Assembly (NCBI RefSeq): GCF_037076455.1
Contig: NZ_AP028679.1
Span: 2,061,501 to 2,125,500 of the forward strand
DNA from: Desulfoferula mesophila
Lineage (GTDB): Bacteria; Desulfobacterota; Desulfarculia; Desulfarculales; Desulfarculaceae
Reading direction: 5' to 3'
DNA: 64,000 nt
Of the stretch, positions 40,374 to 49,527 are shown one piece after another. The notes beneath the pieces are model-generated. The model ran no database searches. It had not been told where the DNA came from and was given only the letters and a program-made list of their open reading frames with translations. Within the stretch, counting starts at the first letter, position 1; each line of letters begins with the position of its first letter. Position numbers and translations under genes: made by a program.

Positions 40374-43037
40374 CTACTCGGGAATGGCGTGCTTGGGGGA
40401 TACCGTTTTCTTGCCCGGGCCCACCTTGCGGTAGACCTCGTGGGGGGCGCGCTTCACGCCGTCCACGGTGAGCAGGTCGTCCACGCTGATTCCGAAGTGG
40501 CGCTCGTTGGCCTCCAGGTAGGGGAGGATCAGCTCCCAGTCCTGGTCGGTGAGCTCGAAATAAGCCCCGCCGTTGAGCTGCTGGTCCACCAGCTTGTGCT
40601 CGGGGTCGCGCACGTAGATGGCACCGCCGCTGGCCAGGGAGAACAGGTTGGATCCGGGGTAGGGGGCCTCCAGGGGCACCACCTTGCCTTGCTTGTCAAA
40701 GGTGATGCCGTTGAGCACCACGAAGCCCCCGCCGTTGTAGGGGTCGCCGGCCATGAAGGATTCGGCCAGGAAGTCCAGGCAGGTGCCGTTGATGACCACC
40801 CGGGGACGGCCCACGGCGTTGATCAGGGGCCGGCCCGCGCCGTTGCCCATGATGAAAACCTGGCCGCCCTTGGCCCCGTACATGAAGGCCTGGCCCACGT
40901 CGCCGTGAATCACCAGGGTGCCGGCCTTCAGGATCTGGCCCAGCTGGTCCTGGCCGTTGTCGTGGATCTGAATCTCCAGGCCGTCCATGCCCGAGGCGAT
41001 GTAGTCGCCGGAGGCGCCGTAGATGTCGAAGCGCACCTCCTCGGTCTCCGGGCCTAGGCCGCAGCCGTGGAAACGCTGGCCCTTGAGGCCGTAGACGATG
41101 AAGCGCTTCCAGCCCAGGTGATAGGCCTGCACCTCCAGGCGGGCATCGCACTCGTCGCCCTCGGGGGGGAAGTGGTGGGCGTAGACCACCAGCACCTTTT
41201 CATCGCCGGCCGGCGCGCGCAAATCGCCCTTGGTTTCCCAGTCGATACGGGCGTAGCGGGTGCCTTTGTTCTCGGCGATGGCCGGGGTGCGGTCCAGGAT
41301 GCCGTTGATGGCGGTGCGCAGCAGCTGCAGCACCACCGAGCGCTTCAGCTCGCCGGTGTCGTAGCGGCGGTCGTTGAGCAGGGTCAGGACCTCCAGGGCC
41401 CACTGGGTGCCCTGGTCGCTGGCCTGGGCCACCTTTTCCACCTGGGCGATGAGCCAGCGCACCTGGGCGAAGCTCCAGGAGGCCATGGCCGAGGCCGCCT
41501 GCTCGTATACCGCCATGGGCTCGGAGCCCTCGGGCGCGGCGTTCAGCGCCTCTTCCAGGCTCTGGGCCTGGTCCGGGACGCTGGTGACCTCTTGGGGATC
41601 AAAGCGCCACTGGCCGGAGTCCACCTCGATGGGGGTGCCGAACTTGTCCATGCAGGTGAGGTCGTAGCCCTGGCCGTTGCCCTGCACGTTGAACAGGAAG
41701 GCGCCGCCGTCGGTGGAGCTGCCGCCGCGGGCGTTCCAGTAGCGGTCGGCCACCAGGCGGAAGCGGGGATCTTCCTGGTTCAGGGAGAGCAGGGTGGCGT
41801 CGATGGCCTGCTTTTCCGAGCCCACCAGGCCGATGGACACGTCGCCGTGTTGCAGGGCGAAGACCTGGGGACGCAGCATGGAGGTGTCGGTGATGCCCAG
41901 AAGCTGGTACAGGTCCTTCTCCGGGTTGGAGCGGGCGATGATGAAGAACCAGGGGCCGTCCGGGCTGCCGTGCATGTGCATGGCCTGGATGGCCCTGTAC
42001 ACCGGCTTCTTCTGGGCGGACAGGCGCTCGAAGTCCAGCTCGGTGGTGGGGGCCATGGCCTCGATGACGTACTCCAGGGGGTAGTGGTACACCCTGGTCC
42101 ACAGGTCGAACAGCAGGACCGCCACCTCGGTGTCGGTGAGGAACTGGGTGGCGATGCCGTGCTGGCGCAGGTACTCGCTGACGCTGTAGTAGTTGGCGAA
42201 GTCGCCGTTGTGCACCAGGGCCTCGTTTAGCCCGATGAAGGGGTGGCTGCCGCCGGGGTGCCAGACGCGGCCCTTGGTGGGGTAGCGCTGGTGGGCGATC
42301 CACACCTTGGCCTTGAAGTCGTCCATGCCGTAGTACTGCACCACCGTCTCGGCGTAGCCCACCACCTTCATGATCACCAGGTTGCGGGCGTGGCTGAGCA
42401 CGAAGGCGCGCTTTTCGCCCAGGCTGGTGTAGAAGGTGGCGTTGAGGCGGTTGGTGTTGCGGTAGATGAACTCGTCTTCCAGGGCTCGGCCGCTCAGCTC
42501 GCCCAGGCCCTCTTCGGCGGCGAAGGACTCCAGGGCCGCCGCTTTGGGCCGCACGAAATAGCGCACCACGTCCGGAGGCTTCACCTCCAGGCCGAAATCG
42601 CGGTAGTCGCCCTGGGTCTCAACCCTGGCCTTGTGGTGGATGTCCAGGTAGGGGCTGACACACTGGGCCTCGACCTCACCCTCGGCCTCGGGGTCCAAAA
42701 GGGCCACCTGCAGGATGTAGTCGTCTTTCAGGGTGCCGGCGTCCACGCCCAGCTGTTGGGGGTCCAGACAGGCCGCGGCGATGCCGCCGCCCTTGCCGTT
42801 GCCCCGGTTGTGCATCTGCACCGACGGTTCGAATATATGGCGTCCCCGCACGGGCACGTTGGCCGCGAAACCCACCACGCCGCAGCCGCCTTCTTCGGCG
42901 GCCTTGTGGGGGCTAAGCGGAGGAGCGTCGGCCGACGCCCTACGGCGGGAGGCCAGGATGGCCTCGGTCATGCGGGTCAGCTCCTCCCGGGAGGGGAGGC
43001 GGCTTTGTCGTCCTTGGGCTTGGAATAGGCTGGCCAC
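40374..43037 (-). CDS. Glutamate synthase subunit: class II glutamine amidotransferase plus GXGXG domain
   Basis: This protein of about 887 residues has an Ntn-type glutamine amidotransferase domain beginning at Cys52 (GGCGVVGFAAN) with HQRYPTKGRVWHPGGSHPF and HNGDFANYY active-site loops, and a C-terminal GXGXG beta-helix domain (GASGDYIASGMDGLEI, GDVGQAFMYGAKGG). It lacks the FMN synthase domain, which is the preceding gene, so glutamine hydrolysis and the synthase core are on two chains as in archaeal-type GltS. Cys52 must be freed by removal of a 51-residue propeptide. The GTG at 43037 has AGAGGA upstream and avoids the overlap of the longer frame. Confidence 0.88.
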   Translation of the reverse strand: MASLFQAQGRQSRLPSREELTRMTEAILASRRRASADAPPLSPHKAAEEGGCGVVGFAANVPVRGRHIFEPSVQMHNRGNGKGGGIAAACLDPQQLGVDAGTLKDDYILQVALLDPEAEGEVEAQCVSPYLDIHHKARVETQGDYRDFGLEVKPPDVVRYFVRPKAAALESFAAEEGLGELSGRALEDEFIYRNTNRLNATFYTSLGEKRAFVLSHARNLVIMKVVGYAETVVQYYGMDDFKAKVWIAHQRYPTKGRVWHPGGSHPFIGLNEALVHNGDFANYYSVSEYLRQHGIATQFLTDTEVAVLLFDLWTRVYHYPLEYVIEAMAPTTELDFERLSAQKKPVYRAIQAMHMHGSPDGPWFFIIARSNPEKDLYQLLGITDTSMLRPQVFALQHGDVSIGLVGSEKQAIDATLLSLNQEDPRFRLVADRYWNARGGSSTDGGAFLFNVQGNGQGYDLTCMDKFGTPIEVDSGQWRFDPQEVTSVPDQAQSLEEALNAAPEGSEPMAVYEQAASAMASWSFAQVRWLIAQVEKVAQASDQGTQWALEVLTLLNDRRYDTGELKRSVVLQLLRTAINGILDRTPAIAENKGTRYARIDWETKGDLRAPAGDEKVLVVYAHHFPPEGDECDARLEVQAYHLGWKRFIVYGLKGQRFHGCGLGPETEEVRFDIYGASGDYIASGMDGLEIQIHDNGQDQLGQILKAGTLVIHGDVGQAFMYGAKGGQVFIMGNGAGRPLINAVGRPRVVINGTCLDFLAESFMAGDPYNGGGFVVLNGITFDKQGKVVPLEAPYPGSNLFSLASGGAIYVRDPEHKLVDQQLNGGAYFELTDQDWELILPYLEANERHFGISVDDLLTVDGVKRAPHEVYRKVGPGKKTVSPKHAIPE

Positions 43038-43057
43038 GATGGCGGTTCCTCTCTCTT

Positions 43058-45982
43058 TCAAGCCTTTTTCTGATAATCCAGATGGGTGAGCAGGTCGCTG
43101 CGTCCCACCAGGTCCCGAACACTCTTGAGCCCCAGGCGCCACAGGATGTCCCGCAGCTGGATGGCCCAGGAGTTGAACAGGTTGATCACCCGCTGGCTGC
43201 CCCAGTCGGCGTCATAAGCCGCCGAAAGCACGGGGTCGGTGGTGGCGATGCCCCGGGGACAGCCCCGGCCGGACTCGCAGTTGGCGCAACGGATGCACTC
43301 CAGGGCCACCATGTCCGCGGTGCCGCAGACGATGCCGTCGGCGCCCAGGGCGATGGCCTTGGCCACGTCCCAAGCGGTGCGCACTCCGCCGGAAGCGATC
43401 AGGGTGATCTTGTCGCGGATGCCCTCCTCGGTGAGGAAGCGGTGCACCATGGGGATGGCGTACTCGATGGGCATGGCGATGTTCTTCTTGGCGATGTCCG
43501 GTGCCGCCCCGGTGCCGCCGTAGCTGCCGTCCAGGTGCACGATGTGGGCCCCGGCGTAATAGGAGCCCACGGCCACCATGTCCACGTCCACCGGGGTGGA
43601 GACCTTCACCGAGACCAGGGTGGTGGGGTTGACGTGCTTGATCCAGTCCACGTGCTTCTTGTGGTCTTCCACCGAATACACGGAGTGGAAGGGGAAGGGG
43701 CTGAACAGGGAGGTGCCCACCACGGCCTCGCGCATCTTGGCCACCGCCTCGGTGACCTTGTCGCCCAGCAGGTGGCCGCCCAGGCCGGGCTTGGCGCCCT
43801 GGGCGTATTTGAACTCCACGATGCGTACCCGCTGGATCGTATCCTCGCGCACCCCGAACAGACCCGTGGCCACCTGGGTGATCACGTTGTCGGAGTATTT
43901 TTCCAGCACGGGCGGGAAGCCACCCTCACCGGTGCAGGTGAAGGAGTTCATGGAGGAGTAAGCCCGGGCCCGGCTCTCCATGGTGGCCTGGCTCACCGAG
44001 CCGAAGCTCATGCCGCCGCCGTAGACCGGGAAGCCGATCTCCACCGGAGGCCGGCCGTCGTCGTCGCGCCGGTTCAGGGGCAGGGAAAGGTCCACGTCCT
44101 GAGGGCCGAAGCTGGCGTCGGGCGGCTCGGGCGGGAACACTATCTCCATGCGGTCGAAGCCGCCGCCGCTGGCGCCCTTGCGGTACTCCAGATTTTCCTC
44201 GGGCGGCTTGCCGGTCTCGGCCTGGATCCAGGTGGCCACCAACAGGTCGGCGGGCCAGCGGGGATCGCCGAAGGTCTTCCACACCGGGTTTTGCCCCACC
44301 CGAATGGCTTCCACCGGACAGGCGTCGCCGCAATAGGAGCCGATGGAGCGGCAATAATCCGCGCCCCGGCAATGGCGGCTGCGCGGGGCCAGCATCTTCT
44401 CGCCGGCCTTTACGTGCACCCCGAACTGGCAGACCTCGGCGCATTTGCCGCAGGCCACGCAGGTGTTGAGGCGCTCGACCTTGAACTTGGTCAGGGCGTT
44501 GCGGTAGCGCGAGGGCGCCGTGGCGATATTGACCGGCAGGGCGCTGTAATCGCCGGGAGCCAGCGGAGGGGCCGCGGTCGGCTTGGCGGGGGGCAGGTCG
44601 GTGACCCGCTCGCCGAAGATGGGCGCGAAGCTCATCTTCTCCAGGTCCTCGAAGACCATGGCCCGGCCCATCTCGCCGCGCAGGCGGCGCACCTCGCGGA
44701 TGCCCATGGCCCCCATCAGCTCGATGAGCTGGGAGTGGAAGGCGCCCAGCAGGTTGACCACGCGGCGTTTGCCCTGCTCGGCGTCGATGCCGTCCAGGTT
44801 CACCGGGCAGTCGAAGCCCTCGGTGCAAGAGCCGCACAAGCGGCACTCCATGGCCACGTTGAGCACCAGGCCCAGGCTCACGGCGTCGGCGCCGCAAAGG
44901 ATGGTCTTGGCCACGTGCTCGGCCAGGGCCACCCCGCCGCCGGCCACCAGGGTCACCTGGTCGCGGCAGGCCTCGTCCACCAGGCGCAGGTGCACCTCGC
45001 GCAACAGGTCGGTGATGAAGGTGCCCGCGGCCTTGCCCAGGCCCTGGCCCTTGTAGCCGGCCTGCAGGTAGAGCACCTCGGCTCCGGCCAGGGCCAGCTC
45101 GGCGGCGCGGTCGGCCGCGTCTTGGTCTAGAGCCAGGCGCACGGCCACCACCAGGTCGGGCCTGAGCTCTTTGAGCTTGGCCACGTCGTCCATCACCCCG
45201 GGGGTGTCGATCATCTCGGCCATGACCACCCCGTCCAGGGGGCTCAGGTTGGCCGGAACGCCGTCCAGGCGCACGATGAGGTGGGGGCGCAGGTCGGCCA
45301 ACAGGTCGGCGGCCTCCTCATAGGTGGCCACGGCCAGGGTCCTGCCCTCCTTGGCCGCCAGGGCCAAGGCCCGGCGGGTGCCGGGGCCCGCCTTGCCCCA
45401 GGGGGGGATGTCCAGGATCATGGGCGTGGGCAACTCCACCATGGGCGGCATGTCCACGTCCAGGGCGCCGTCTTCGTCGAAGAACAGGCGGTCGGGGCGG
45501 CGGCCCAGCTCGATGGTGGTGCTGATGTATTCGCGGCCGTGGATGCCGTCGCGGGTGGGCCGCACGATCTCGCTCATGTCGGTCCACATCTTGTCAAAGC
45601 CGGGACCGGCAAAGGGGCCGCGATAGCCGGCCCCGGACACCGGGATGGCGCCGGTGGTGGCCTGCTTCCACAGGGTGCCGATGATGTCCGGCCGCCAATA
45701 ATCGTCGCCCATGGCCTCGAACTGGGGGTTCACGGCCCGGGAGAGGATGCCTTTTTTGCATTCCTGCACGCAGCGCATGCAGCTGATGCACATGGAGTCG
45801 GTGGTGTCCACCACCTGCCCGGCGTCAAAGGTCTTCTTGCGATAAACCTCGTAAATGCAGCTATCGCGCTTGACGCACTTCAGGCAGCCCAAACAGCCTT
45901 CCGTCTCCATGGCGGCGATTTTGGCCACCGGAGTGAAACGCGGTTGGGTGGGGTCCACCTCGACGTGATACTTTTCGCCCAT
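43058..45982 (-). CDS. Glutamate synthase FMN/iron-sulfur subunit with internal duplication
   Basis: This 974-residue protein carries, in order: two [4Fe-4S] motifs (Cys30/33/36/42 and Cys65/68/71/75), a partial TIM-barrel copy (about 275-440) with a C-x2-C-x2-C-x5-C set at 380-392, ferredoxin-type cysteines (508-519 and 538-555), and the FMN glutamate synthase barrel (about 640-960) with VSVKVSTPVDVD, HLDGSYGGTGAAP and a second C-x2-C-x2-C-x5-C set at 896-908. It should condense ammonia with 2-oxoglutarate using electrons from a ferredoxin-like donor; no GltD-type NADPH subunit is adjacent. It lies between metF and the amidotransferase gene. Confidence 0.85.
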   Translation of the reverse strand: MGEKYHVEVDPTQPRFTPVAKIAAMETEGCLGCLKCVKRDSCIYEVYRKKTFDAGQVVDTTDSMCISCMRCVQECKKGILSRAVNPQFEAMGDDYWRPDIIGTLWKQATTGAIPVSGAGYRGPFAGPGFDKMWTDMSEIVRPTRDGIHGREYISTTIELGRRPDRLFFDEDGALDVDMPPMVELPTPMILDIPPWGKAGPGTRRALALAAKEGRTLAVATYEEAADLLADLRPHLIVRLDGVPANLSPLDGVVMAEMIDTPGVMDDVAKLKELRPDLVVAVRLALDQDAADRAAELALAGAEVLYLQAGYKGQGLGKAAGTFITDLLREVHLRLVDEACRDQVTLVAGGGVALAEHVAKTILCGADAVSLGLVLNVAMECRLCGSCTEGFDCPVNLDGIDAEQGKRRVVNLLGAFHSQLIELMGAMGIREVRRLRGEMGRAMVFEDLEKMSFAPIFGERVTDLPPAKPTAAPPLAPGDYSALPVNIATAPSRYRNALTKFKVERLNTCVACGKCAEVCQFGVHVKAGEKMLAPRSRHCRGADYCRSIGSYCGDACPVEAIRVGQNPVWKTFGDPRWPADLLVATWIQAETGKPPEENLEYRKGASGGGFDRMEIVFPPEPPDASFGPQDVDLSLPLNRRDDDGRPPVEIGFPVYGGGMSFGSVSQATMESRARAYSSMNSFTCTGEGGFPPVLEKYSDNVITQVATGLFGVREDTIQRVRIVEFKYAQGAKPGLGGHLLGDKVTEAVAKMREAVVGTSLFSPFPFHSVYSVEDHKKHVDWIKHVNPTTLVSVKVSTPVDVDMVAVGSYYAGAHIVHLDGSYGGTGAAPDIAKKNIAMPIEYAIPMVHRFLTEEGIRDKITLIASGGVRTAWDVAKAIALGADGIVCGTADMVALECIRCANCESGRGCPRGIATTDPVLSAAYDADWGSQRVINLFNSWAIQLRDILWRLGLKSVRDLVGRSDLLTHLDYQKKA

Positions 45983-46027: not shown

Positions 46028-46969
46028 CTAGACCTCCGGACGCGGGGACAGGCCTGCCTGGTTGATTATCTCGGGCAAGAGCTCCTCGGCCTCGATGGCC
46101 TGCAGATGCACTCCCTTGACCCCCGTAAGCTCCCTGACCTGTTCGATCAGCTCGATGGTCACCTTGATACCCTCGGCCTGAGGGTCGGAGGCGCCTTTCA
46201 TACGGTCGATGAGCTCCTGGGGAACCACCACGCCGGGCACGTTCTTGTTCATGTAGTTGAGCATGCCCGCCGAACGGGGCACGATGAGCCCCGGCAGGAT
46301 GGCGGTTTTTTCGGTCAGGCCCATGTCCACCGCCTTGGCCAACTGCTCGGCAAAGGCCTTGATGTCGTAGACGGCCTGGGTCTGGATGAAGTCCGCGCCC
46401 GCGGCCACTTTCTTGGCCAGGCGCAACACGCGAAACTCCACCGGCGGTCCCAGGGGAGTCCAGGCCGCGCCGATGAAGAACTGCGGCTTGCTGGTCAGGC
46501 TGTCGCCCCCGGCCTGCAGGCCCTCGTCGCGCATGTTCTTGATGATGTTGATCAGCTGGATGGAGTCCACGTCGTAGACTCCCTTGGCTCCGGGATGGCC
46601 CTTGAGCTTGCCGCTGGCCCCGGCGCCCTGGTGGTCGCCGCTGATGGCCAGGATGTTCTTCAGCCCCAGGGCGGCCGCGCCCAGCAGGTCGCTCTGCATG
46701 GCGATGCGGTTGCGGTCCCGGCAGGTCATCTGGGCCACCGGCTCCAGCCCGGCGTCCAAGAGGATCTTGGAGCCGGCGATGGAGGACATGCGCACCACCG
46801 CGGTCTGGTTGTCGGTGACGTTGTAGGCGTCGGCAATGCCCCTGAGCACTTCGGCCTTTTTGAGCACCTCGTCCACGTCCGGGCCCCGGGGCGGGCCCAC
46901 TTCGGTGGTGAGGGCGAACTGGCCGGCGGCCAAAACCTTCTCTAACTTGGTTCCCGCTTTGAGACTCAT
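46028..46969 (-). CDS. metF: Methylenetetrahydrofolate reductase
   Basis: This 313-residue FAD TIM-barrel enzyme of the MetF family has FALTTEVGPPRGPD near the start and YNVTDNQTAVVRMSS near residue 52, the short form common in anaerobes. It interconverts methylene- and methyl-tetrahydrofolate, a step of methionine synthesis and of the Wood-Ljungdahl pathway. The ATG overlaps the metV stop as ATGA, with GGGAGGA upstream, so the MetV-MetF pair is translationally coupled. In MetVF enzymes MetV brings electrons from an iron-sulfur partner instead of NADPH. Confidence 0.93.
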   Translation of the reverse strand: MSLKAGTKLEKVLAAGQFALTTEVGPPRGPDVDEVLKKAEVLRGIADAYNVTDNQTAVVRMSSIAGSKILLDAGLEPVAQMTCRDRNRIAMQSDLLGAAALGLKNILAISGDHQGAGASGKLKGHPGAKGVYDVDSIQLINIIKNMRDEGLQAGGDSLTSKPQFFIGAAWTPLGPPVEFRVLRLAKKVAAGADFIQTQAVYDIKAFAEQLAKAVDMGLTEKTAILPGLIVPRSAGMLNYMNKNVPGVVVPQELIDRMKGASDPQAEGIKVTIELIEQVRELTGVKGVHLQAIEAEELLPEIINQAGLSPRPEV

Positions 46970-47637
46970 GACCGCAGATCCTCCCGCAGCATCCTCTTGG
47001 GCCCTCCGGCCGGCGAGTTGGACCAGTCCTTGGGAGGACGCACCTTGGTGAGGTCCTCCAACCGGCCGCGGGCGGTGGCCCGCTCCACGATCAGCCGCCA
47101 GATACAGGGCGTGTCCTCGTTGATCTCACACATTCCGTTGGTGCGGGTGCCGCCGCAGGGGCCGTTTTGCAGGCTCTTGGCGCAGCGGGCCACCGGGCAC
47201 AGGCCGAAGGTCAGCCCCAGCACGCAGTCGCCGCAGGCGGCGCAACGGCTGGTCCACAGGCCCGGCTCCTCACGGATGCTCAGGCTGGTGGTGTTGACTC
47301 CGGGGTAGAGCGAGGTATCGGCATAGCGCTCGGCCACCAGCTGCATGCCGATGCCGCAGGCCACGCTGACGATGGCGTCGGCCTCGGCCGCCGCCTCGGC
47401 GATGTCCTCCAGGAACTCGGGCTCGCACTGGCGCTCCAGGGTGGCGCTTTTCACCTCGATGGGGTTGCCGTCGTTTTGCATGGCCATGGCCAGCAGGGGC
47501 GCCAAGGTCTCCACCTCCCGCTCTCCGCCGGCGGCGCACTCGGCCACGCAGGTGGCGCAGCCGATTACCAGCACCTTTTTATGGCCGCGCAGGTAACCCA
47601 CCATCTCCTCAATGGGCTTCCACTCAGCGGTAATCAT
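46966..47637 (-). CDS. metV: MetV, iron-sulfur / zinc subunit of methylenetetrahydrofolate reductase
   Basis: This 223-residue protein matches the MetV family (annotated as methylenetetrahydrofolate reductase C-terminal domain): GCATCVAECAAGG near residue 26 and the dense cysteine block CAACGDCVLGLTFGLCPVARC followed by NGPCGG and CIW near 135-180. The cysteines are expected to bind [4Fe-4S] clusters and zinc and to relay electrons to MetF. Upstream by six bases is an MvhD-like gene, the kind of protein that links MetVF to other electron carriers in Moorella-type complexes. Confidence 0.9.
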   Translation of the reverse strand: MITAEWKPIEEMVGYLRGHKKVLVIGCATCVAECAAGGEREVETLAPLLAMAMQNDGNPIEVKSATLERQCEPEFLEDIAEAAAEADAIVSVACGIGMQLVAERYADTSLYPGVNTTSLSIREEPGLWTSRCAACGDCVLGLTFGLCPVARCAKSLQNGPCGGTRTNGMCEINEDTPCIWRLIVERATARGRLEDLTKVRPPKDWSNSPAGGPKRMLREDLRS

Positions 47638-47643
47638 CGGCGC

Positions 47644-48072
47644 TCAAACTCCTTTCATGGGGTTGGGCCCCAGGGCCCGCACGGCCTCGGCCCTCTGGCC
47701 GGCCATCTCCATTAAATCATCCAGGCTAAGGCCCGCGCCCCGGTCTAGACCCAGGCGTTCGGCGCCCATGCCAACCTGCTCCAAAAGCCCCCGGCCGCGG
47801 GCAATGCGCTTTTCGGCCCGGTTGCTGCCCACCAGATGTTGGCAGGCCTTCTCGGGACAAGCCGCTATCTGCACCCCGTCGGCGCCCTTTTCCAAAAGGC
47901 GCATGAGGTGGGGAAGCTGCACCTTGCTGCTACAGGGCAGCAGCACCAGGCGGACTCCGAAGCCCTCACCGGCGCGCTGCCCTTGCACCGGCTTGGCCTC
48001 GGCGGCCAAGCTCTGGCGGCAATAGAGCAGGGTGATCTGCGGCTGGAAATCTGCGGTCGAATTATTGGCCAT
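47644..48072 (-). CDS. mvhD: MvhD / HdrA-associated delta-type hydrogenase iron-sulfur subunit
   Basis: This 142-residue protein fits the MvhD (FlpD) family: an N-terminal LLYCRQSLA, LLPCSSKVQLPHLMRLLEKGADGVQIAACPEKACQHLVGSNRAEKR. Four cysteines (in YCRQ, PCSS, ACPEKAC) could hold a [2Fe-2S] cluster; the first position has a single Cys instead of the usual CxxC pair. In methanogens and acetogens MvhD passes electrons between hydrogenase or dehydrogenase and HdrA. Here it begins an operon with metV, metF and glutamate synthase and no hdrABC. SD GGGAG lies 13 bases ahead of the ATG, separated from it by T6. Confidence 0.85.
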   Translation of the reverse strand: MANNSTADFQPQITLLYCRQSLAAEAKPVQGQRAGEGFGVRLVLLPCSSKVQLPHLMRLLEKGADGVQIAACPEKACQHLVGSNRAEKRIARGRGLLEQVGMGAERLGLDRGAGLSLDDLMEMAGQRAEAVRALGPNPMKGV

Positions 48073-48269: not shown

Positions 48270-48291
48270 GGCAAACACGGCAACCTTTGCC
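48270..48291. promoter_or_regulatory. Palindrome spanning the predicted start site of the mvhD-metVF-glt operon
   Basis: GGCAAA and TTTGCC are exact inverted repeats ten bases apart. The right arm abuts the -10 hexamer of the minus-strand promoter and the pair brackets the expected start near 48285, a typical repressor position. It does not match the GGWA/TWCC pattern of NrpR. Confidence 0.45.
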
Positions 48292-48320
48292 TTTATGACA
48301 GAGGATTTCCATATTGTCAA
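48292..48320 (-). promoter_or_regulatory. Promoter of the mvhD-metV-metF-glt operon
   Basis: On the minus strand a perfect TTGACA (48320-48315), a 17-base spacer and CATAAA (48297-48292). Transcription would begin near 48285, leaving a leader of about 210 bases before mvhD. Confidence 0.6.
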
Positions 48321-48462
48321 CACCCACCCCGCGCGGCTTCAGCAATGGCTGCTATCCGTTGATTTAATTGGTTAACCGGCTATTACGCCCCCTGGGGGGT
48401 GAAACGCGCCGCGCCAGGGTGTTGAGCGCACGGGAATAGACGGCAATTTTGCCGCATCATGC

Positions 48463-48491
48463 TTGACTTTATCGATACGAGCGGTTAGGTT
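48463..48491 (+). promoter_or_regulatory. Promoter of nrpR
   Basis: TTGACT (48463-48468), a 17-base spacer and TAGGTT (48486-48491); the start would fall near 48498, just upstream of the operator-like palindrome and 43 bases before the GTG start. Confidence 0.55.
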
Positions 48492-48508: not shown

Positions 48509-48522
48509 GGTAGAAGCCTACC
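48509..48522. promoter_or_regulatory. NrpR-type operator, GGTA-N6-TACC palindrome
   Basis: GGTAGAAGCCTACC has the length and spacing of archaeal NrpR operators (GGAA-N6-TTCC in Methanococcus; I recall GGTA-N6-TACC for Methanosarcina). It lies between the predicted nrpR start site and the ribosome site, where a bound repressor would block the gene for NrpR itself and for the channel behind it. Confidence 0.6.
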
Positions 48523-48540
48523 AAATGGAAGGAATTTGCG

Positions 48541-49527
48541 GTGGACGAACGCAGCAGAAGAAAAATCCTCGATGTACTAAGAGTGCTGTCGGAATCGGAC
48601 AAGCCCCTGGGCGGCACCCGCATTGCCCACGCCCTGGCCCTGGCCGGCAAGGACATGAGCCAACGGACCATCCGATACTACCTTAGCATAACCGACCAGG
48701 AAGGCCTGACCCAGCAGGTGGGCCGCCGGGGACGCAAGCTGACCGCCGAGGGGCGCCGGGAGTTGGAAACCGCCTACGTGGTCGACAAGGTCGGCTTCGT
48801 GGCCGCGCGGGCCGAGGCCCTGATCTACGGTATGGACTTCAAGCTCCGGCAGGGCCGGGGCAAGGTGGTGGTGAACCTTTCGGTGCTCAGATCCCAGGAC
48901 GTGCCCCGGGCCAAGGAGGTGATGCGCCGGGTGTTCCAGGCGGGCTATTCCCTGGGCGACCGCCTGCTCGTCGGCCGCCCCGGCCAAAAGGTGGGCTCCT
49001 ACACCCCGGAGCCCGATGAAGTGGTGGTGGCCACGGTGTGCTCCATCGCCATCAACGGGGTGATGCTCGATGAAGGCGTGCCCATGACCAACCGCTTCGG
49101 CGGGCTCTTACAGGTCAGCGAGCACAAGCCGCTGCGCTTTACTCAGATCATCAATTACGACGGCACCACCCTGGACCCATTGGAGATTTTCATCAAGGGC
49201 CGCATGACTTCGGTCAGCCAGGCCGTGGCCACCGGCGAGGGAGTCATCGGGGCCAGTTTTCGCGAGATTCCCGCCCCGGCGGCGGAAAAGGCCCGCCGCC
49301 TGGCCGGACGCCTGGAGAAGGCAGGCCTGGGGGCCATCATCCTGATCGGCCGGCCCGGCCAGCCTCTCTTGGAGGTACCCCTGGCCACCGGACGGGTGGG
49401 CATGGTGGTGCGGGGCGGGCTCAACCCCATGGCCGCTGTGGAGGAGGAAGGCATAGTCACCACCAACCGCGCTTTTTCACAACTCCTGCCCTTTGAACAA
49501 CTCGACCGTTGGGAGGATGTGTTGTGA
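48541..49527 (+). CDS. nrpR: NrpR-family nitrogen regulator
   Basis: This 328-residue protein has an N-terminal winged helix-turn-helix (about 1-65, IRYYLSITDQEGLTQQVGRRG) and one NrpR/DUF128 ligand domain (about 75-310, with FGGLLQVSEHKP and VRGGLNPMAAVEEEGI). In methanogens NrpR represses nitrogen-assimilation genes and is released by 2-oxoglutarate. Methanococcus NrpR has two DUF128 domains; this form has one, like NrpRI of Methanosarcina. The start is GTG behind GGAAGGA. It is divergent from a glutamate synthase operon and overlaps the potassium channel gene by four bases. Confidence 0.9.
   Translation: MDERSRRKILDVLRVLSESDKPLGGTRIAHALALAGKDMSQRTIRYYLSITDQEGLTQQVGRRGRKLTAEGRRELETAYVVDKVGFVAARAEALIYGMDFKLRQGRGKVVVNLSVLRSQDVPRAKEVMRRVFQAGYSLGDRLLVGRPGQKVGSYTPEPDEVVVATVCSIAINGVMLDEGVPMTNRFGGLLQVSEHKPLRFTQIINYDGTTLDPLEIFIKGRMTSVSQAVATGEGVIGASFREIPAPAAEKARRLAGRLEKAGLGAIILIGRPGQPLLEVPLATGRVGMVVRGGLNPMAAVEEEGIVTTNRAFSQLLPFEQLDRWEDVL

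Follow-up and report, generated by a model that had tools for sequence, protein, structure and literature searches.

Comparison across genomes indicates, with good confidence, that the bacterial NrpR encoded in a 64,000-nucleotide stretch of Desulfoferula mesophila DNA (the window) represses glutamate synthase through paired operators of the form GGCAA-N2..4-TTGCC. NrpR is otherwise familiar chiefly from methanogenic archaea, whereas the host here is a bacterium of the sulfate-reducer type. NrpR very probably regulates both its own gene, nrpR, and the divergently transcribed glutamate synthase (glt) operon. The predicted regulon in this genome consists of flpD-metV-metF-gltB1-gltB2, one further glutamate-synthase-type gene and nrpR. 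Sequence comparison demonstrates the motif, its pairing, its overlap with the predicted glt start point and its link to NrpR. The operator motif and the pair rule, of which the papers searched give no earlier description for bacterial NrpR, provide a testable regulon for a repressor encoded in about one fifth of the sampled Desulfobacterota genomes; they would link a repressor of the 2-oxoglutarate type with glutamate synthase rather than with glutamine synthetase.

The genes of the locus are the following:

48541..49527, plus strand: nrpR, GTG start at 48541 and stop at 49527; 328 amino acids, wHTH (HTH_12) and single NRD domain
47644..48072, minus strand: flpD/mvhD-like gene for an iron-sulfur subunit, opening the divergent operon (PF02662)
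46966..47637, minus strand: metV-like, methylene-THF reductase C-terminal family (PF12225)
46028..46969, minus strand: metF-like methylene-THF reductase (PF02219)
43058..45982, minus strand: gltB1, ferredoxin-type and glutamate synthase (FMN) domains (PF01645, E 4e-108, and Fer4)
40374..43061, minus strand: gltB2, amidotransferase (GATase_6) and GXGXG domains (PF13522, PF01493), start as called

The earlier note had described an NrpR protein with an HTH and a single DUF128 domain, divergent from a glutamate synthase operon, and the domain searches bear out both descriptions. The protein matches PF08461 (wHTH, E 1.4e-15) and one PF01995 domain (NRD, E 1.2e-76), both over the Pfam cut-off, while no NCBIfam profile matched it; besides nrpR, the complete 4.48-Mb genome has no PF01995 gene. 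Among solved structures, the closest to the protein by sequence is the nitrogen repressor-like MJ0159 of Methanocaldococcus jannaschii (PDB 3nek, E 1e-21), and a model of the protein predicted by AlphaFold from 40 bacterial homologues (mean pLDDT 89.8) matches 3nek with Foldseek E values of 1e-19 to 2e-20 and a TM score of 0.87-0.91 on the target. The two proteins thus share the NRD fold, although they are 24% identical and the alignment with the solved 3nek chain is confined to the regulatory part. In 40 bacterial NrpR sequences 27 columns are invariant, of which 19 lie in the NRD domain, from G107 onward. Membership in NrpR is claimed by domains and fold, and the operator is a variant. The closest named relatives come from Desulfarculaceae and Desulfarculus MAGs, and close relatives keep nrpR divergent from flpD-metV-metF-gltB1-gltB2, the operon assigned here by its Pfam domains. 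The glutamate synthase itself has an unusual layout (40374-45982), with both two glutamate-synthase-like stretches and ferredoxin-type domains in gltB1, and an amidotransferase joined to GXGXG in gltB2; gltB1 and gltB2 share one operon with metV-metF and flpD. On the other side, an ion-channel-like gene (PF07885, 49524-50252) follows nrpR almost without a gap in the window and in the closest relatives.

Two promoters and two palindromes were placed in the region between nrpR and flpD:

48463..48491, plus strand: predicted nrpR promoter, TTGACT-17-TAGGTT, read from the sequence; CTTGAC invariant across seven aligned relatives
48441..48454, no strand: predicted operator N2, CGGCAATTTTGCCG, CGGCAA-N2-TTGCCG, immediately upstream of the nrpR -35 box; invariant as a block across the seven close intergenic regions aligned
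48293..48320, minus strand: predicted glt operon promoter, TTGACA-16-TCATAA, read from the sequence; seven relatives share the TGTCAA and TTTATGACA blocks without change
48278..48291, no strand: predicted operator N3, CGGCAACCTTTGCC (GGCAA-N3-TTGCC at 48279-48291), over the predicted glt operon start point; invariant block

In the alignment of seven relatives, the invariant blocks of the nrpR-glt intergenic region are the two palindromes and the promoter elements. Between 48441 and 48467 the invariant string is CGGCA-n-T-n-TTGCCG followed by CTTGAC, and between 48277 and 48320 it is ACGGCAAC-n(2)-TTGCCTTTATGACA followed by TGTCAA. N2 and N3 are both GGCAA/TTGCC palindromes that differ in the spacer, and their centres are 162.5 bp apart. 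The N3 site follows the TTGAC of the predicted minus-strand promoter by 24 nt and is therefore placed over the predicted start point; the start-point copy has an N3 spacer in the window and N4 in many distant relatives.

The motif is also frequent before nrpR in other bacteria. Exact GGCAA-N2-4-TTGCC was found in 30 of 55 bacterial nrpR upstream regions (mean 0.15 and maximum 2 in dinucleotide shuffles), and with up to one mismatch in 42 of the 55 (shuffles: mean 3.8, maximum 9). Genome-wide, single sites are not above chance, with 30 exact matches against the approximately 0.54 per 64 kb, or 38 per genome, obtained from shuffles, and most of those in this genome lie inside called genes. Single sites were therefore not used as evidence, and the argument is built on conservation and pairing. 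In two relatives (L035, L036) CGGAAAT(A/T)TTTCCG replaces CGGCAA..TTGCCG some 41-50 bases upstream of nrpR, a half-site shifted toward the Methanococcus type, and at another locus (L127) an inverted repeat whose 18-base arms match perfectly lies 339 to 300 bases ahead of nrpR, with a GGCAA-N4-TTGCC operator at its centre.

NrpR operators in Methanosarcina have the form GGTA-N6-TACC. The Methanosarcina protein resembles that of the window in having a single NRD domain with a wHTH, one of the archaeal arrangements, whereas the half-site here is GGCAA and not GGTA. The earlier note had proposed a site of the Methanosarcina form as the operator, describing it as a perfect 14-base palindrome:

48509..48522, no strand: GGTAGAAGCCTACC, GGTA-N6-TACC, judged a chance match outside the system

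The string is present at this position, but only its GGTAG and CTACC ends pair and the inner AAGC does not, so the palindrome is imperfect. As a true operator in the nrpR 5' untranslated region, GGTAGAAGCCTACC would agree with the Methanosarcina form and would be suitably located, between promoter and start codon. This reading is nevertheless highly improbable. GGTA-N6-TACC occurs in one of the 55 bacterial nrpR upstream regions, that of the window itself, and in none of the other 54, nearest relatives included; relatives with as much as 89-93% identity in NrpR still differ in the columns aligned to 48509-48522. Nor is the form enriched in the genome, where GGTA-N6-TACC has 23 sites and its reversed-pattern control 43, and GGWA-N6-TWCC occurs twice in the window, where 2.0 are expected by chance. 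The site at 48509 is almost certainly a chance match, neither conserved nor enriched, and the strict archaeal form GGWA-N6-TWCC was not found as a conserved NrpR site among the 55 upstream regions. Of the autoregulated nitrogen switch envisaged in the earlier note, control of nrpR and of the divergent operon thus stands as very probable from sequence, with GGCAA-N2/N3-TTGCC sites elsewhere in the region as the operator.

The other glutamate-synthase-type gene of the genome (PF01645; G000:C1:428422-430041) is 1.7 Mb away and unlinked to nrpR. It is preceded by the same N2 and N3 pair, with centres again 162.5 bp apart and with the same 24-nt spacing from TTGAC to the N3 site. In distant bacteria (L026, L027, L028, L030), nrpR lies divergent from a homologue of this gene. 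A search for the pair in 395 Desulfobacterota genomes gave 11 matches within the family, in seven of its ten members: six at nrpR/glt, five at the second glutamate-synthase-type gene and none elsewhere. Outside the family, three of 385 genomes had a match, and the reversed control matched in three of 395. In a relaxed scan of the D. mesophila genome, eight places were found, and only at the two known loci were both sites intergenic. These data bear on whether the upstream N2 site serves nrpR autoregulation only, without contributing to the control of glutamate synthase. Its position just upstream of the nrpR -35 box, in a conserved arrangement, would suit that role; however, N2 is also found, at 162.5-164.5 bp, before the unlinked gene, where there is no nrpR, and we consider a purely autoregulatory N2 rather unlikely.

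Motif and regulator also go together across genomes. With up to one mismatch, the motif precedes the second type of glutamate synthase gene at 18 of 30 loci in genomes with NrpR and at none of 27 in genomes without it; exact motifs number 15 and 0, respectively (Fisher 8e-6, an optimistic value because the genomes are phylogenetically related). When only loci without nrpR in the same fetched stretch are counted, the figures are 4 of 13 and 0 of 27 (p 0.008, optimistic for the same reason). One of the genes in NrpR-lacking genomes has no site although its protein is 81% identical, and G146, the family member without NrpR, has no operator either. Around 40% of the glutamate synthase loci in NrpR-containing genomes have no site, and these are mostly divergent homologues.

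A different regulator could bind the GGCAA...TTGCC pair at glutamate synthase promoters, nrpR being merely one of its targets. The presence of the motif at glt as well as nrpR promoters, the NrpR-containing genomes without a motif at glt and the fact that NrpR binding is itself a prediction would all fit such a protein. Apart from the co-occurrence of motif and NrpR (18/30 against 0/27), two observations make it improbable. First, the motif persists before nrpR irrespective of whether glt, NAD synthase or glutamate dehydrogenase is transcribed divergently from it. Among remote relatives, nrpR is divergent from NAD synthase, GATase and glutamate synthase at L022, L025 and L041 (at L023 without a GATase call), and from glutamate dehydrogenase at L031 and L040. 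Second, 16 distant nrpR upstream regions contain GGCA-N6-TGCC (0.6 in shuffles), which has the spacing of the archaeal NrpR operator GGAA-N6-TTCC (PMC2723118).

In the proposed mechanism, an NrpR dimer would occupy each palindrome, and the dimers would act jointly, possibly through looping of the intervening DNA. Bound NrpR would block RNA polymerase at glt and would also adjust transcription of nrpR. By analogy with archaeal NrpR, which is released by 2-oxoglutarate (PMC4902934, PMC9765008), high 2-oxoglutarate under nitrogen shortage would release the repressor, so that glutamate synthase, a 2-oxoglutarate consumer, is made. The equal spacing at two unlinked loci suggests looping. Within the family the pair distance is about 163 bp; outside it the distance ranges from approximately 81 to 177 bp and follows no 10.5-bp rule, and 162.5 bp is itself a non-integer number of 10.5-bp turns. 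For these reasons looping is kept as a hypothesis.

The earlier note had expected glnA, amtB and nif in the regulon, and none of them has a site of the conserved type in this genome: no GGCAA-type operator was found outside genes at the amtB-glnK-glnA operon, at two further amtB-glnK pairs or at the nif operon. Both nif and the glnA operon adjoin genes of the sigma-54-activator (NifA-type) kind: a Sigma54_activat/GAF protein is encoded before nif, and a protein with a similar N-terminal sequence, together with a sigma-54-type site, precedes amtB-glnK-glnA. Elsewhere in the genome, a lone intergenic TGGCAATATTGCCA (G000:C1:1937150-1937163) lies 285 bases before an FAD-linked (glycolate-oxidase-type) oxidase-like gene, a possible further NrpR target.

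Archaeal NrpR has the consensus operator GGAA-N6-TTCC and controls nif, glnA, glnK-amtB, molybdate transport and an alanine symporter (PMC2723118); judging from the title of Lie 2005, cited there, the Methanococcus maripaludis repressor uses two operators at nif. The window system is like that of M. maripaludis (MMP0607) in its wHTH and NRD family, in an inverted-repeat operator with GG..CC ends, predicted here to be used in pairs as are the two at nif, and in predicted targets belonging to nitrogen assimilation. Unlike it, the window system has GGCA-N4/N5-TGCC, its predicted targets are glutamate synthase and nrpR, and glnA, amtB and nif are without a site. On sequence grounds, the window NrpR differs from known NrpR in its operator (GGCAA, spacers N2-N4) and in its predicted targets, glutamate synthase and itself.

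A 2007 paper (PMC1852104) noted NrpR homologues in Dehalococcoides and attributed them to lateral transfer, and the presence of NrpR in "certain Bacteria" has already been stated (PMC2723118); in the open-licence literature we found no operator or regulon for any bacterial NrpR. We identified NrpR in 80 of 395 Desulfobacterota genomes, representing 59 of 245 genera, as well as in records whose names point to several further bacterial phyla, so it is no local curiosity, and its wide spread in Desulfobacterota speaks against a recent local transfer event. On a broader reading, to which we give an even chance, NrpR in many bacterial phyla would be a switch devoted to glutamate synthase or glutamate dehydrogenase, one that senses 2-oxoglutarate directly and uses paired, differently spaced GGCAA palindromes cooperating over about 163 bp, parallel to a separate NifA/PII branch for glnA and nif. 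Four Desulfobacterota genomes (G245, G177, G306 and G342) carry two nrpR genes, approximately 3-4 kb apart and on opposite strands.
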